Of a stretch of DNA of 64,000 nt, positions 57,499-64,000 are shown in pieces. The DNA comes from Aureimonas flava. Lineage in GTDB: Bacteria > Pseudomonadota > Alphaproteobacteria > Rhizobiales > Rhizobiaceae. Made by a program: the position numbers and the translations under genes. The DNA lies in contig NZ_QYRN01000005.1 in assembly GCF_003583935.1 (NCBI RefSeq), positions 248,001-312,000 on the forward strand, in the 5' to 3' direction. Numbering within the stretch: the first letter of the stretch is position 1; each line of letters begins with the position of its first letter. The notes below the pieces were generated by a model, which worked only from the letters and a program-made list of their open reading frames with translations, had not been told where the DNA came from and made no database searches.

Positions 57499-59379
57499 TC
57501 ACGCCCGGCCGATCGCCTTGGCCTTGGATTCGTCGTACCACCAGAGATGTTCCACCGGAAAGCCGTATTCGGGCTTCGTGGGCGCCATGCCGAACATGTC
57601 CCACCACGCGCTGTTGTGGCCCTCGGCGTGGATGTTCGGGATCCAGTCGAGCCGCCAGCGCAGCACGCGGTCGAGCGCGCGCATGGTATGCGTCAGCTCG
57701 TCGCGGCTCCTCGCCTCGCCGATCCGGTCGAGAAGTCGGTCCACCGCCGGGCTCGCCATGCCGGGATAGTTGTAGGACCCGTCGCGGTCGCGCGCGTTCG
57801 AGCCGAAGAAGAGCGACATCCCTTCGCGCGTCGGCGTGCCGTTGAAGCCGAAGCGGCAGAGGATCATGTCGAAGTCGAAGCGGTTCAGCCGGTCCTGATA
57901 CTGGGCGGCGTCCACCACGCGCATCGACGCCTCGACGCCGAGCAGCTTCATGTTCTCGACCATCTTCCCGTAGACGCGACCCTGCTCGGGGTCGTTCAGG
58001 AGATATTCGAGGCGGAATGGCTGGCCGGCCGCGTCCACTAGGGTCGAGCCCCGCCGCGTCCAGCCGGCGGCGGCGAAGAGCTCGGAGGCTTCGCGCAAGG
58101 GCCGACGGTCGCGGCCCGAACCGTCGGTGACGGGCTGGGTCCAGACCTCGCCGAAGACCTCCGGCGGCAGGTCGGCCCGCAGCGGCTCGAGGACGGCGAG
58201 TTCCTCCGGCGTCGGCGCGCCGGTCGCCACGTAGTCCGACAGCTCGAACGGCGACTGAGAGTGCTGGCGCAGGCCGAACAGGAGGTTGGCGTTGGTCCAC
58301 TCGAAGTCGAAGCACAGGTTGATCGCGCGTCGCACCCGCGCGTCGCCGAACTGGGCCCGGCGCTGGTTCAGCGCCCAGCACTGGAAGTTCGGCCAGCTCT
58401 CGCCGGGGATGGTGTCGCGCTTCACGCGTCCGTCCTGCGCGGCCGGGAACGCGTATTCGCTCGCCCAGGCGCGCGGCGTGAACTCCTCGCGATAGGTCAC
58501 GTCGCCCTTCTTGAAGGCTTCCAGCGCGGCTTGACGGTCTCGGAAGCACTCGACGCGGATGGTCTGGAAATGGCCGAGCCCCTTGGAGAAGGGCATGTCG
58601 CGGCCCCAGTAGTCGGCGCGCTTCTCGTACTCGATGAAGCGCCCGGCGGCGTAGCGGCCCACCTCCCATGCTCCGGAGCCGGGAATAGCATCGAAGCCGC
58701 CCTGCCCGAAGGGTCGGTCGGCGAAGAAGGCGGCCGGCACGATCGGCATCGACAGCGCGGCCAGCGCGGTCGGCACGGTCTGGCGGCCGGAAAAGACGAT
58801 GCGAACGGTCCGCTCGTCCTCGGCGGCGACCTCGGTCACCTCCACGAGCTGGATGGCAAGGGACGGATGGCCCTCCCGTTTCAGCGTGTCGTAGGAGAAC
58901 ACGACGTCGGCGGCCGTCACCGGCGCGTCGGTCGAGAAGCGCGCCTCAGGCCGCAGCCGGAAGGTGAAGCGGTTGCCGTCGGCGGAGACCGCGACGCTTT
59001 CGGCCAAAAGCCCGTAGATCGCGTCCGGCTCGTCCAGCGTGGAGAGCATCAGGCCCTCGTAGAGCATCTCCATGCGCGGCGGCGCGTTGCCTTGGAGCAC
59101 CAGCGTGTTGAACGTGTCGAACGTGTCGGGGGACTGGTTGAAGAACCAGGACGGCACGGTGAAGGTGAACCGGCCGCCGGCCGGCGCCTCCGGCGTCGCG
59201 TAGTCGAACTGCGCGTAGTCCGCCGGATATTTCAGATCGCCGAAGGCCGACAGGCCGTGCAGCGGCGTGTCGGCGGGATTGTCGGCGAAGGACAGGCGGG
59301 GCAGGGCGGCGGCCGCCGCCGCGCCCATCGCCAGCTTGCCGAAATGGCGACGGCTGATGCGAACGAAGCTTTCCGTCAT
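57499..59379 (-). CDS. yejA: extracellular peptide-binding protein YejA, Tat signal
   Basis: 626 residues of solute-binding family 5. The N-terminus MTESFVRISRRHFGKLAMG has a twin-arginine motif (RR at 10-11, SRRHFGK) and a following Ala-rich helix, so it is exported folded through Tat. The mature part has FGDLKYPADYAQFDYATPEAPAGG and PIVPAAFFADRPFGQGG as in YejA. It lies 10 bp after a second YejA-like gene. Confidence 0.93.
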   Translation of the reverse strand: MTESFVRISRRHFGKLAMGAAAAAALPRLSFADNPADTPLHGLSAFGDLKYPADYAQFDYATPEAPAGGRFTFTVPSWFFNQSPDTFDTFNTLVLQGNAPPRMEMLYEGLMLSTLDEPDAIYGLLAESVAVSADGNRFTFRLRPEARFSTDAPVTAADVVFSYDTLKREGHPSLAIQLVEVTEVAAEDERTVRIVFSGRQTVPTALAALSMPIVPAAFFADRPFGQGGFDAIPGSGAWEVGRYAAGRFIEYEKRADYWGRDMPFSKGLGHFQTIRVECFRDRQAALEAFKKGDVTYREEFTPRAWASEYAFPAAQDGRVKRDTIPGESWPNFQCWALNQRRAQFGDARVRRAINLCFDFEWTNANLLFGLRQHSQSPFELSDYVATGAPTPEELAVLEPLRADLPPEVFGEVWTQPVTDGSGRDRRPLREASELFAAAGWTRRGSTLVDAAGQPFRLEYLLNDPEQGRVYGKMVENMKLLGVEASMRVVDAAQYQDRLNRFDFDMILCRFGFNGTPTREGMSLFFGSNARDRDGSYNYPGMASPAVDRLLDRIGEARSRDELTHTMRALDRVLRWRLDWIPNIHAEGHNSAWWDMFGMAPTKPEYGFPVEHLWWYDESKAKAIGRA

Positions 59380-59389
59380 CGGTCGGCCC

Positions 59390-61369
59390 TCAGGGTCGCG
59401 AGGCGGGAATGGCGGGCGCGGCGGCCGGGTCGGGCGCGCCCGCAGCCGCCTGATCTGCCGGCGTGTTCACCGGCACCTCGCCCTTGACCCACCACGAGAA
59501 CGGATCGATGCCGGCATAGGCCGGTCGCCGCTCGGGCATGCCGAACTTGTCCCACCAGGCGAGCCAGATGTTGGGGTTGTGGTACTGCGGCACGACGTAG
59601 AAGTTCCACAGGAGAACCCGGTCGAGGGCGTGCGTCGCGGCCACGAGACTGTCGCGGTCCGGCGCGTAGATGATCTTCTCGATGATGGCGTCGACGGCCG
59701 GGTTGCGGATGCCGGCCGCGTTGCGGCTACCCGGCTGGCTCGCCGCCGCGCTGGACCAGAAGTCGCGCTGCTCGTTGCCGGGCGAAAGAGACTGCGCCAT
59801 GACGTCGGTCACTACGTCGTAGTCGAAATTGTCGGCGAGCGCCTGATACTGCGAGGCGTCCACGATGCGCGTCGAGGTCTCGATGCCGAGACGCTTGAGC
59901 TGGTTGGCGAAGGGATCGATGACGCGGCTCGAGGACGGGTCGGCCGCCAGGAACTCGATGCGGAACGGCTCGCCCTTGGCGTTCACGAGCTGCGAGCCCT
60001 GCCGCTTCCAGCCGGCCTGCGTCAGGAGTTCGAAGGCCTCGCGCAGGTAGGTGCGCTCGGCGCCCGGGTCCGAGTAGTCGGGCAGGGTGAAGGGCGTCGT
60101 GAAGACTTCGGGCGGGATCTCGGCGCGCAGCGGCTCGAGGATCTTCAGCTCCGCCTCGCTCGGCAGGCCCGAGGAGGCGAGCTCGGTGCCCTGGAAATAG
60201 CTCGTGGTGCGCGCGTACTGCCCGTAGAACAGCGAGCGGTTCATCTCCTGGAAGTTGTAGGCGAGCGTCAGCGCGTGACGCGTGCGCGGATCGGAGAACT
60301 TCTCGCGCCGCGTGTTGAGCACGAAGCCCTGCATCGGCTCGCCGCTCTCGGAGGGAATCGCCTCCTTCTTGACGCGCCCGTCGCGGAAGGCGGGGAAGTC
60401 GTAGCCCTGCGCCCAGCGGCCGGCGCTGTTCTCCGAGCGGTAGTCGGAGAAGCCGCCGCGCTTGAAGGCCTCCCAGCCGGCGCTCTGGTCGCGGAAGTAG
60501 GTGTAGCGGATCTCGTCGTAGTTGAAGCGGCCGCGGCGGGGGCCCTTGTCCGCCGCCCAGTAGTCCGGCACGCGCTCCCAGGTGACGGTGGACCCGGGCT
60601 GGTAGGCCTTGACGCGGTAAGGGCCCGATCCGACCGGGACCTCCAGCGTCGGGTTGTCGATGTCGCGCTTGCGCCCCTGCGCGTCCGTGCCTTCCCAGAA
60701 GTGCCGGGGCAGCACCACGAGGTCGCCCATGATGTTGGGCAGCTCGCGGTTTCCGGTCTGATCGAAGCGGAAGGTCACCTCGCGCTCGCCGGTCACCTCG
60801 GCGCTGGTCACGTTGTGGTAGTAGTTGGCGTAGAGCGGGGACAGGCGCGTCACCGTCCGGAAGGTCCAGATCACGTCGTCGGCGGTGATCGGCTGCCCGT
60901 CCTGGAAGCGGGCGTCGGGATCGAGACGGAAGGTGACGGAGGAGAAGTCGTCCGGGTAGCGCATCGCCTCGGCGATCAGCCCGTGGCTGACGCCCGGCTC
61001 GTCCGGTGCCTGGTCCATCAGCGTGTCGTAGGCGATCCCCCCGCCGAAGGCGGCGAAGCCGGCCGCCGGGGTGCCTCGGACGGGGAAGGGGTTGAAGCTG
61101 TCGAACGTCCCCGACGTCTGGAGATTGAGGCGCCCGCCCTTCGGCGCGTCGGGGTTCACATAGTCGTAATGGGCGAAGTCGTCGCCGTATTTCGAGGGCC
61201 GGATCAGCGACGACGAGGTCCGCCATTCGCCCGCCTGCCGCGTCGGCGTACCGGGCGCTGCGGGTGCCGCCGCCTCCTGCGCCAGGGCCGGCGCGCCCGA
61301 CAGGGCGAGGAAAGCGGTCAGGGCGAGGGCGGACACGGCGCGCGAGACTGGCGGCAAATCGATCTCCAT
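59390..61369 (-). CDS. extracellular peptide-binding protein, YejA paralogue, Sec signal
   Basis: 659 residues of the same family. The signal sequence MEIDLPPVSRAVSALALTAFLALSGAPALAQ lacks a twin arginine, so export should be by Sec. Mature motifs YGDDFAHYDYVNPDAPKGG, GSGPYRVKAY and VRHALTLAYNFQEMNRSLFYGQY-like RTRHALTLAYNFQEMNRS match YejA. The C-terminal end is Ala/Pro-rich. It is the first gene of the yej run, and probably recognises a different set of peptides from its paralogue. Confidence 0.93.
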   Translation of the reverse strand: MEIDLPPVSRAVSALALTAFLALSGAPALAQEAAAPAAPGTPTRQAGEWRTSSSLIRPSKYGDDFAHYDYVNPDAPKGGRLNLQTSGTFDSFNPFPVRGTPAAGFAAFGGGIAYDTLMDQAPDEPGVSHGLIAEAMRYPDDFSSVTFRLDPDARFQDGQPITADDVIWTFRTVTRLSPLYANYYHNVTSAEVTGEREVTFRFDQTGNRELPNIMGDLVVLPRHFWEGTDAQGRKRDIDNPTLEVPVGSGPYRVKAYQPGSTVTWERVPDYWAADKGPRRGRFNYDEIRYTYFRDQSAGWEAFKRGGFSDYRSENSAGRWAQGYDFPAFRDGRVKKEAIPSESGEPMQGFVLNTRREKFSDPRTRHALTLAYNFQEMNRSLFYGQYARTTSYFQGTELASSGLPSEAELKILEPLRAEIPPEVFTTPFTLPDYSDPGAERTYLREAFELLTQAGWKRQGSQLVNAKGEPFRIEFLAADPSSSRVIDPFANQLKRLGIETSTRIVDASQYQALADNFDYDVVTDVMAQSLSPGNEQRDFWSSAAASQPGSRNAAGIRNPAVDAIIEKIIYAPDRDSLVAATHALDRVLLWNFYVVPQYHNPNIWLAWWDKFGMPERRPAYAGIDPFSWWVKGEVPVNTPADQAAAGAPDPAAAPAIPASRP

Positions 61370-61574: not shown

Positions 61575-62555
61575 TTACTGCGCCGGAGCCGGAGCCGGAG
61601 CCGGATTTTCGGCCGGGGCGGCGGGAGCCGCCGGCGTCGCGGGGGCCGGGTTCTGCTGCGGGGCCTGCGTGCCCGGTGCCTCCGGCGCGGCCTGGCCCGG
61701 CTCGGCCGGCGGCACGGGGGCACCCGCCGGCGCGCTGGTCGCGTTGTCGCCGGTGGCGGGCACCGTTCCGGCGGGCGGGGTGGTCGGGGCGGCGCCCGTG
61801 GTCTGGTCGGTGGTGCCGGCGCCCTGCGGCTGGCTCACCGCGTCGTTGGGCAGCGCGTTCGCGTTGGTGGTGGCGTTCGGCGTGGTCGGCGCGGGGGCGG
61901 CCGCGCCCTCGGCGGGCGCCGCGGCACCCTCGGCCGGCGCTGCCCCTTCGGCAGGTGCCGCGCCCTCGGCCGCCGCTTCGCCGCCGGCCGGCGCGCCGGC
62001 GTCGGGCGCGGGCGGCGGGGGCGGGTTGTCGGACAGGGTGCCGAGATAGGCGAGAAGGTCCGCGCGCTCCTGGTCCTTCGGGATGCCCGCGAAGCCCATG
62101 GCCGTGCCCTGGACGTACTGCTTGGGGCCGTGCAGGAAGTGGTTCAGGTGGTCCCAGTCCCAGACGACCGACTTGCCCTGCGAGAACTCGGTCAGCGCCG
62201 CCGAGTAGCTGAAGCCCTCGTGCGAGGCGATCGGCCGGTTCACGATGTCCCACAGGTCGGGGCCGACCTTGTTGGGGCCGCCCTTCTCGCCCGAGTGGCA
62301 GGCCTGGCAGCGCTTGAAGATCGCCGCGCCCGCCTCGGCGTTGGCGGACTGCATGAGCTGGCCGACCGGCGTCACCTCGTTGGCGGCCGGGGCGGCGCCG
62401 CCGCCGGCCGGCGCGTCGGGCACCGCGATCTCGAAACCGGGTTTCTCGGGCGTCTCTGCGTGGAAGATGCCCTCGGCCAGTAGGCTGCCGCCGAACAGAA
62501 CGAACACGGTGCCGAGCAGGGCGCCGAAGATCTTGTTGGCCTCGAACGAATTCAT
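61575..62555 (-). CDS. cycM: membrane-anchored cytochrome c (CycM/c552-like) with long Ala/Pro/Glu-rich tail
   Basis: 326 residues. An uncleaved N-terminal helix (about 8-28, [20 protein letters not shown]) is followed by a class I cytochrome c domain with the haem motif CQACH (83-87), axial Met153 in GTAMGFAG, and [13 protein letters not shown]. It would pass electrons between bc1 and the oxidase. Beyond residue 177 comes a tail of about 150 residues with repeated APAEGA units and no predicted fold; ordinary CycM proteins stop at the domain end. The start at 62555 ([11 protein letters not shown]) matches homologues. Confidence 0.9.
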
Positions 62556-62765: not shown

Positions 62766-64000
62766 ATGTCCACCATGATCCTCATCCCGTCCCGACTGGC
62801 CTCGACCCGGCTTCCCGCCAAGCCGCTCGCCGACATCGCGGGACGTCCGATGATCGTGCGCGTGGCCGAGCGTGCGCGCGAGGCCGCCATCGGCCGCGTC
62901 GTGGTGGCCACCGACGATCCCTCGATCCGGGACGCGGCGGTGGCGGCCGGCTTCGAGGCGGTGATGACGGGCGGCCACCACCAGTCGGGCTCGGACCGGA
63001 TTTTCGAGGCGCTGGAGCGCCTCGATCCGGCGGGCGAGGTGGAGACGGTGATCAACCTCCAGGGCGACCTGCCGACCATCGAGCCGGAGACGATCCGCGC
63101 CGTGCTGCGCCCGTTCGAGGATCCGCGCTGCGACATCGCAACCGTCGCGGTCGCCATCGCGAACGAGGCGGACCGGGACGATCCGAGCGTGGTCAAGCTG
63201 GTCGGCACGCCGGTGGGGCCGGACCGGCTGAGCGCCCTCTACTTCACCCGCGCCACGGCGCCCACGGGCGAGGGGCCGCTCTATCACCACGTCGGCATCT
63301 ACGCCTATCGGCGGGCGGCGCTCGCGCGTTTCGTGGCGCTCGCGCCCTCGCCGCTGGAGACGCGCGAGAAGCTGGAGCAGCTCCGCGCGCTGGAAGCGGG
63401 AATGCGGATCCAGGCGGAGGTCGTGGACGCCGTGCCGCTCGGTGTCGACATGCCCCATCAGCTGGAGGAGGCGCGCCGCTTCTTCGAGCCGGCGGCCCGT
63501 TCGGGCCGGATTTCCTTCCAGGGCGAGCCGGGCGCGAATTCCGACACCGCGTCCCGCACCATGTATCCCGATCTCGAGCCCCTGCCGTGCCCGACCTTCG
63601 AGGATGCGCTGGCCGCCGTGACGCGCGGCGAGGCCGACCTCGCGATGATCCCGATCGAGAACACCATCGCCGGCCGCGTCGCCGACATCCACCATCTCCT
63701 GCCCGTCTCGGGCCTCCAGATCGTGGGCGAGTTCTTCCTTCCGATCCGCTTCCAGCTCATGGCGAAGCGCGGGGTGGCGATGGGCGACATCCGCGAGGTG
63801 CACAGCCATATCCACGCCCTCGGCCAGTGCCGCGGCATCCTGCGCCGCAACGGCTGGAAGCCGGTGGTGGCCGGCGACACGGCCGGAGCGGCGCGCGTCG
63901 TCTCGCAGATGCCGGAGCCCCACGTCGCCGCGCTCGCGCCGCGCCTGGCGGCCGAACTCTACGGGCTCGACATCCTGGCCGAGAACGTCGAGGACGCCGA
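62766..64000 (+). CDS. kdsB-pheA: KdsB-PheA fused reading frame (CMP-Kdo synthetase / prephenate dehydratase), cut by window edge
   Basis: One uninterrupted frame of 411 codons to the window end. Residues 1-237 are a complete 3-deoxy-manno-octulosonate cytidylyltransferase ([52 protein letters not shown]). From residue 248 the sequence is prephenate dehydratase ([41 protein letters not shown]). No stop codon separates them, and no start codon lies at the junction (F-F-E-P-A-A-R-S-G). The last in-frame ATG before it is at 63450, in [10 protein letters not shown], where KdsB normally has Thr; it could serve as an internal start. KdsB activates Kdo for lipid A; PheA makes phenylpyruvate. In related bacteria they are adjacent separate genes. 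The start is preceded by a spaced leader divergent from the cytochrome gene. Confidence 0.88.

Follow-up and report, generated by a model that had tools for sequence, protein, structure and literature searches.

The window analysed here, a 64,000-nucleotide stretch of the Aureimonas flava genome, ends inside an open reading frame that raises the following question: are the genes for CMP-Kdo synthetase (KdsB), a lipopolysaccharide enzyme, and prephenate dehydratase (PheA), an enzyme of phenylalanine synthesis, truly joined into one gene, and would this gene act as a single protein? The frame is on the forward strand, opens with the ATG at 62766, and was read without a stop codon as far as the window end at 64000. 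On the 413 kb genome contig (G000:C22) it continues for another 364 bases to a stop codon at C22:312362-312364, corresponding to window position 64364, and comprises 532 codons. A preliminary description of the locus had reported a complete CMP-Kdo synthetase running without a stop into prephenate dehydratase, in a predicted protein of about 500 residues. The first statement is borne out, as the frame exceeds the NCBIfam equivalog cut-offs for both enzymes, and the second was close to the actual 532 residues. Judged by its sequence, the gene is very probably a real, genus-wide fusion that would specify one polypeptide of about 532 residues carrying two enzymes that most likely act independently.

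The KdsB domain (62766-63482, + strand) covers residues 1-239, where it matches model NF003948 and the fold of PDB entry 3k8d. It is followed by a linker, FEPAARSG (63483-63506, + strand; residues 240-247), which was placed from the alignment of fused proteins, and then by the prephenate dehydratase (PDT) catalytic domain, which has a fold match to 6vh5 and runs from residue 249 to 424 (63510-64000, + strand, truncated by the window end). The ACT domain sits after residue 424, outside the window. Searched as a full-length protein, the KdsB model NF003948 scored 378.4 bits over residues 1-241 (cut-off 281) and TIGR00466 scored 196.7 bits (cut-off 155.2), while the PheA model NF008866 scored 458.5 bits over residues 246-525 (cut-off 359) and PF00800 scored 187 bits (cut-off 25.2). 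The NF003948 match extends to model position 244 of 248 and that of NF008866 starts from position 5 of 283, so either enzyme is nearly intact at the junction. Other models stayed below their cut-offs, both for KdsB (NF009905, 232.6 versus 255; NF003950, 204.3 versus 234) and for PheA (NF008865, 191.8 versus 219). A chance open frame was ruled out, since each half scores above the cut-offs of curated families and all 21 genomes of the genus preserve the joined frame.

Two further features are seen on the opposite strand of the window. Beside the fusion is a c-type cytochrome gene (61578-62555, - strand), whose product gave a sub-cut-off match to cytochrome c-550 (62.9 versus 240 bits) and has a long Ala/Pro-rich tail with repeated PAEGAA-like units. 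Two adjoining genes (57499-61369, - strand) code for large ABC-transporter substrate-binding proteins of 626 and 659 aa, which fell under the cut-off for all NCBIfam models among the matches listed.

Compared with stand-alone KdsB, 3-deoxy-manno-octulosonate cytidylyltransferase (NF003948, TIGR00466; PDB 3k8d and 8ees), the fused gene holds the whole enzyme with the same fold and motifs, but has no stop codon, and the second enzyme begins about 8 residues on. The sequences RLPxKPL, QGDxP and LGVD, which we take to be the conserved nucleotide/metal motifs of KdsB, are intact in all 21 fused proteins, and RLPxKPL, QGDxP and GVD are also shared with the Klebsiella pneumoniae enzyme (8ees). Likewise, the catalytic and ACT parts of a monofunctional PDT-ACT prephenate dehydratase (NF008866, PF00800; 6vh5) are complete in the fusion, and the stretches IENT, DTAG, NxTRF and, in the ACT domain, KLESYQ, presumably the conserved motifs of this family, occur in 21 of 21 fused proteins as well as in 6vh5. 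In line with the earlier statement that both domains keep their signature motifs, ten patterns were each found in every fused protein, although they were written from these very sequences as aligned and show only the absence of degradation.

A search of the genus recovered the fusion, without an internal stop, from all 21 Aureimonas genomes. Twelve of these correspond to records named Aureimonas (L036-L047), all of which read as fused, and three are single-contig assemblies (G003, G005 and G006). Within the genus, searching relatives for the same fused gene, a check proposed in the preliminary description, returned 21 joined copies and none with a stop at the junction. In a tree built from the KdsB and PDT parts of 123 loci, with L024 as the root, the 21 fused sequences all group together (ultrafast bootstrap 99), and the deepest branch within this clade is the pair L022/L023, which are 67–68% identical to the query. 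Since the fused copies form a single clade, their sequences make one ancestral event likely.

Outside the genus, a search of relatives (E-value limit 1e-3) found no stop-free match over both halves in any of 40 genomes; the matches in G021 and G053 span both halves and contain one stop. By our reading, the two halves lie on the same strand of one contig, no more than 400 nt apart, in 33 of these 40 genomes, so that the earlier view that relatives carry kdsB and pheA side by side as separate genes applies to most of them but not to all. Wider draws were then compared, which overlap and are samples, and from which a very diverged fusion could escape through the E-value limits. No fusion was found among the 56 non-genus matches of the family draw (at E ≤ 1e-130, 61 matching genomes out of 297, five of them from the genus), each having at least one stop, nor in the order draw (52 of 397 at 1e-110) or the class draw (24 of 385 at 1e-90), where a stop was present in each of the 51 and 23 others, respectively. 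The phylum draw matched 57 of 398 genomes at 1e-75, 56 of them others; a single stretch matching both halves, always with a stop, was present in 13 of the 56, and the match was confined to the KdsB half in the other 43, some of which have PDT as a separate piece. Aurantimonas, Jiella and Fulvimarina, which we take to be the sister genera of Aureimonas, may or may not be included in these draws.

Unfused loci in which kdsB is followed by pheA numbered 102, a count that leaves out L002, L032-L035 and the duplicate genus loci L036-L047. The kdsB stop lies 24–81 nt (median 34) upstream of the PheA match, and the two genes share a frame at 95 loci and differ in frame at 7, a ratio biased by the ranking of the loci with a fused query. 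This Alphaproteobacterial pair has the same two genes in the same order as the fused gene, but with a stop and a separate start in between. Adjacent separate genes in relatives (102 loci) and a joined frame in one clade (21 sequences) are the pattern by which a gene fusion is recognized. The Aureimonas ancestor would have lost the stop of kdsB and the start of pheA, separated by a few dozen bases, so that the frames became joined, plausibly by a small deletion in the tightly spaced gene pair. Such a deletion may have been tolerated because the C-terminus of KdsB and the N-terminus of PheA can apparently be joined.

The two halves and the linker differ in constraint. Averaged across every pairing of the 21 genes, pN/pS was 0.36 for the KdsB core, 0.46 for the last KdsB helix, 0.88 for the linker, 0.31 for PDT and 0.30 for ACT; these values are rough, because pS, taken as a raw proportion, comes close to 0.46. 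At the sequence level, both enzymes are clearly constrained and the linker, 8 codons long (9 in one species, L018), hardly so. AlphaFold, run with a 63-row alignment on the orthologue L036 (89% identity across 411 shared residues), gave a model that contains both folds, with a mean pLDDT of 83.5 and a pTM of 0.60. The last KdsB helix spans residues 230-239 of this model, which has the same numbering, and PDT strand 1 begins at residue 248. Foldseek matched the model to 6vh5, a PDT with phenylalanine (68–69% identity in the aligned part), and to 3k8d, Escherichia coli KdsB with CTP and 2-deoxy-Kdo (41% identity), so the structure prediction suggested earlier as a check does return the two expected folds. 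The modelled placement of the KdsB and PDT-ACT domains relative to each other is not reliable, because of the pTM of 0.60 and the range of mean pLDDT across the five models, from 66.9 to 83.5 (66.9–82.2 for the other four). Another near fold of the PDT half is 7am0, titled as a quorum-quenching acylase (GqqA), which is 53–54% identical in the aligned part; a side activity of the fused PheA is conceivable.

From these data, we infer an intact, single bifunctional polypeptide. Its N-terminal domain is predicted to convert CTP and Kdo to CMP-Kdo, and its C-terminal PDT-ACT part to convert prephenate to phenylpyruvate, probably with phenylalanine feedback via ACT. Folding and function of the two parts are most likely independent, with the short and weakly constrained linker as the tie between them. 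The same linker gives some room for a different outcome, in which cells make the fusion polypeptide and then cleave it to release KdsB and PheA as separate proteins: pN/pS peaks in this stretch, as might be expected of an exposed, cleavable tether. However, no conserved cleavage motif was seen by eye in the linker alignment, and we consider cleavage unlikely.

A gene with two products is also to be weighed, in which free PheA is made besides the fusion from an internal start such as the in-frame ATG at 63450-63452 (+ strand; residue 229, just after LGVD), the site named in the preliminary description. This ATG lies 20 codons upstream of ISFQGE and is common to six of the 21 species (L001 and L003-L007); in seven more, an ATG (L008, L018) or a GTG (L014-L017, L019; L017 also has a TTG) is found elsewhere between LGVD and I[SA]FQGE, and PheA of unfused relatives begins about 7–8 codons before the same motif. 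Against this, a screen for ATG, GTG and TTG found none of the three between LGVD and I[SA]FQGE in eight species (L009-L013, L020, L022 and L023), so the PDT-ACT enzyme, here preceded by KdsB, lacks in these species an ATG, GTG or TTG start of its own, unlike the monofunctional form. In A. flava, the ATG at 63450 is the sole such codon between LGVD and ISFQGE; it precedes the linker, which itself holds no ATG, GTG or TTG, in keeping with the earlier remark that the junction codons contain no start. No purine-rich, Shine-Dalgarno-like stretch was seen by eye in the 16 nt upstream of it, and the ATGs that follow lie within the conserved PDT N-terminus. A conserved internal start was rejected, the site being present in six species only, and the sequences speak against a required one. 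Moreover, as kdsB has no stop, ribosomes making KdsB must continue into PheA, and free PheA could only add to the fusion, not replace it. Lack of conservation of the internal start makes a two-start gene distinctly unlikely. The bifunctional protein, which had been offered as another option, is favored at the sequence level by the open junction in all 21 genomes and by this lack of a conserved start. The idea of lipopolysaccharide and phenylalanine enzymes in one polypeptide holds directly for the gene, and presumably for the protein; no Aureimonas proteome was present among the literature matches listed.

Most Gram-negative bacteria require KdsB. Each of the 21 genomes has one PF00800 match, inside the fused frame, a count that covers this PDT family and not the PheC-type cyclohexadienyl dehydratases. 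Matches to TIGR00466 below the cut-off are present in every genome, and in 20 of 21 the fused copy alone exceeds it. All 21 genomes contain PF04413, the Kdo transferase (WaaA) family, and CMP-Kdo is therefore presumably needed. With a single PDT (21/21), a single KdsB (20/21) and PF04413 (21/21), both Kdo activation and prephenate dehydration probably depend on the fused gene. The exception is G014, taken to be Aureimonas frigidaquae, which has a second, free KdsB over the TIGR00466 cut-off. This stand-alone protein (246 aa) scored 352.4 bits against a cut-off of 281, and its gene sits between those for KdsA and a KpsF/GutQ-family isomerase, forming a compact Kdo cassette (L032:476-3191) that perhaps, at a guess, serves a capsule. 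It provides a natural comparison for the fused KdsB within one genome.

The Kdo/lipopolysaccharide and aromatic pathways both draw on phosphoenolpyruvate, and the fusion could be regulatory, with phenylalanine bound to ACT altering CMP-Kdo synthesis or the joined domains forming a special assembly. The nearest solved PDT, 6vh5, is a phenylalanine complex, and all 21 fused proteins keep the ACT segment around GGFATNG.NMTKLESYQ. ACT conservation, however, would be expected of PheA by itself, and the weakly constrained linker gives no sign of a tuned interface, so we hold a regulatory role to be very improbable. Equally small is the chance that the candidate control link exists in its specific form, whereby CMP-Kdo synthesis by the KdsB half responds to phenylalanine or prephenate bound in the PDT-ACT half; if it did, the outer-membrane lipopolysaccharide output of Aureimonas would be tied to aromatic amino acid status. 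The suggestion that an assembly or sequencing error had concealed a stop or frameshift is refuted, and has next to no likelihood left, because the junction is open in all 21 genus genomes, among them the single-contig assemblies and records that carry a wide variety of accession prefixes.

Fusions involving prephenate dehydratase are known. In the chorismate mutase-prephenate dehydratase (P-protein, NF007910), PDT-ACT likewise follows another enzyme, but that partner catalyses the pathway step just before PDT, whereas the partner here is a lipopolysaccharide enzyme. Membership of the P-protein family was rejected, as NF007910 scored 131.3 against a cut-off of 577 bits, matching only from model position 100, and the N-terminal part of the fused protein is KdsB where the P-protein has chorismate mutase. 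Exported chorismate mutase-cyclohexadienyl dehydratase fusions, as far as the accessible part of the source describes them, are a rare fusion at the prephenate-dehydrating step; they unite two consecutive enzymes of one pathway, are exported and carry a PheC-type dehydratase, unlike KdsB-PheA (PMC10520331). Our literature search, which covered mostly titles and the beginnings of abstracts and lay outside most subscription journals, found no description of a kdsB-pheA fusion, and within that scope it agrees with the earlier statement that none is known. We regard both enzymes as known and their combination in one gene as new.

On the sequence evidence, the most likely reading is that two independent enzymes were fused passively through stop loss, and the main consequence would probably be the fixed one-to-one production of two unrelated activities. 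Annotation pipelines may, we suppose, name such a protein after one half alone. 'Rosetta stone' inference would predict a functional link between KdsB and PheA, one that is perhaps non-existent if the fusion is passive. With two pathway-unrelated enzymes locked in one gene over a whole genus, Aureimonas is a clear example with which to ask if selection favors fusions between adjacent genes of unrelated pathways or simply allows them.
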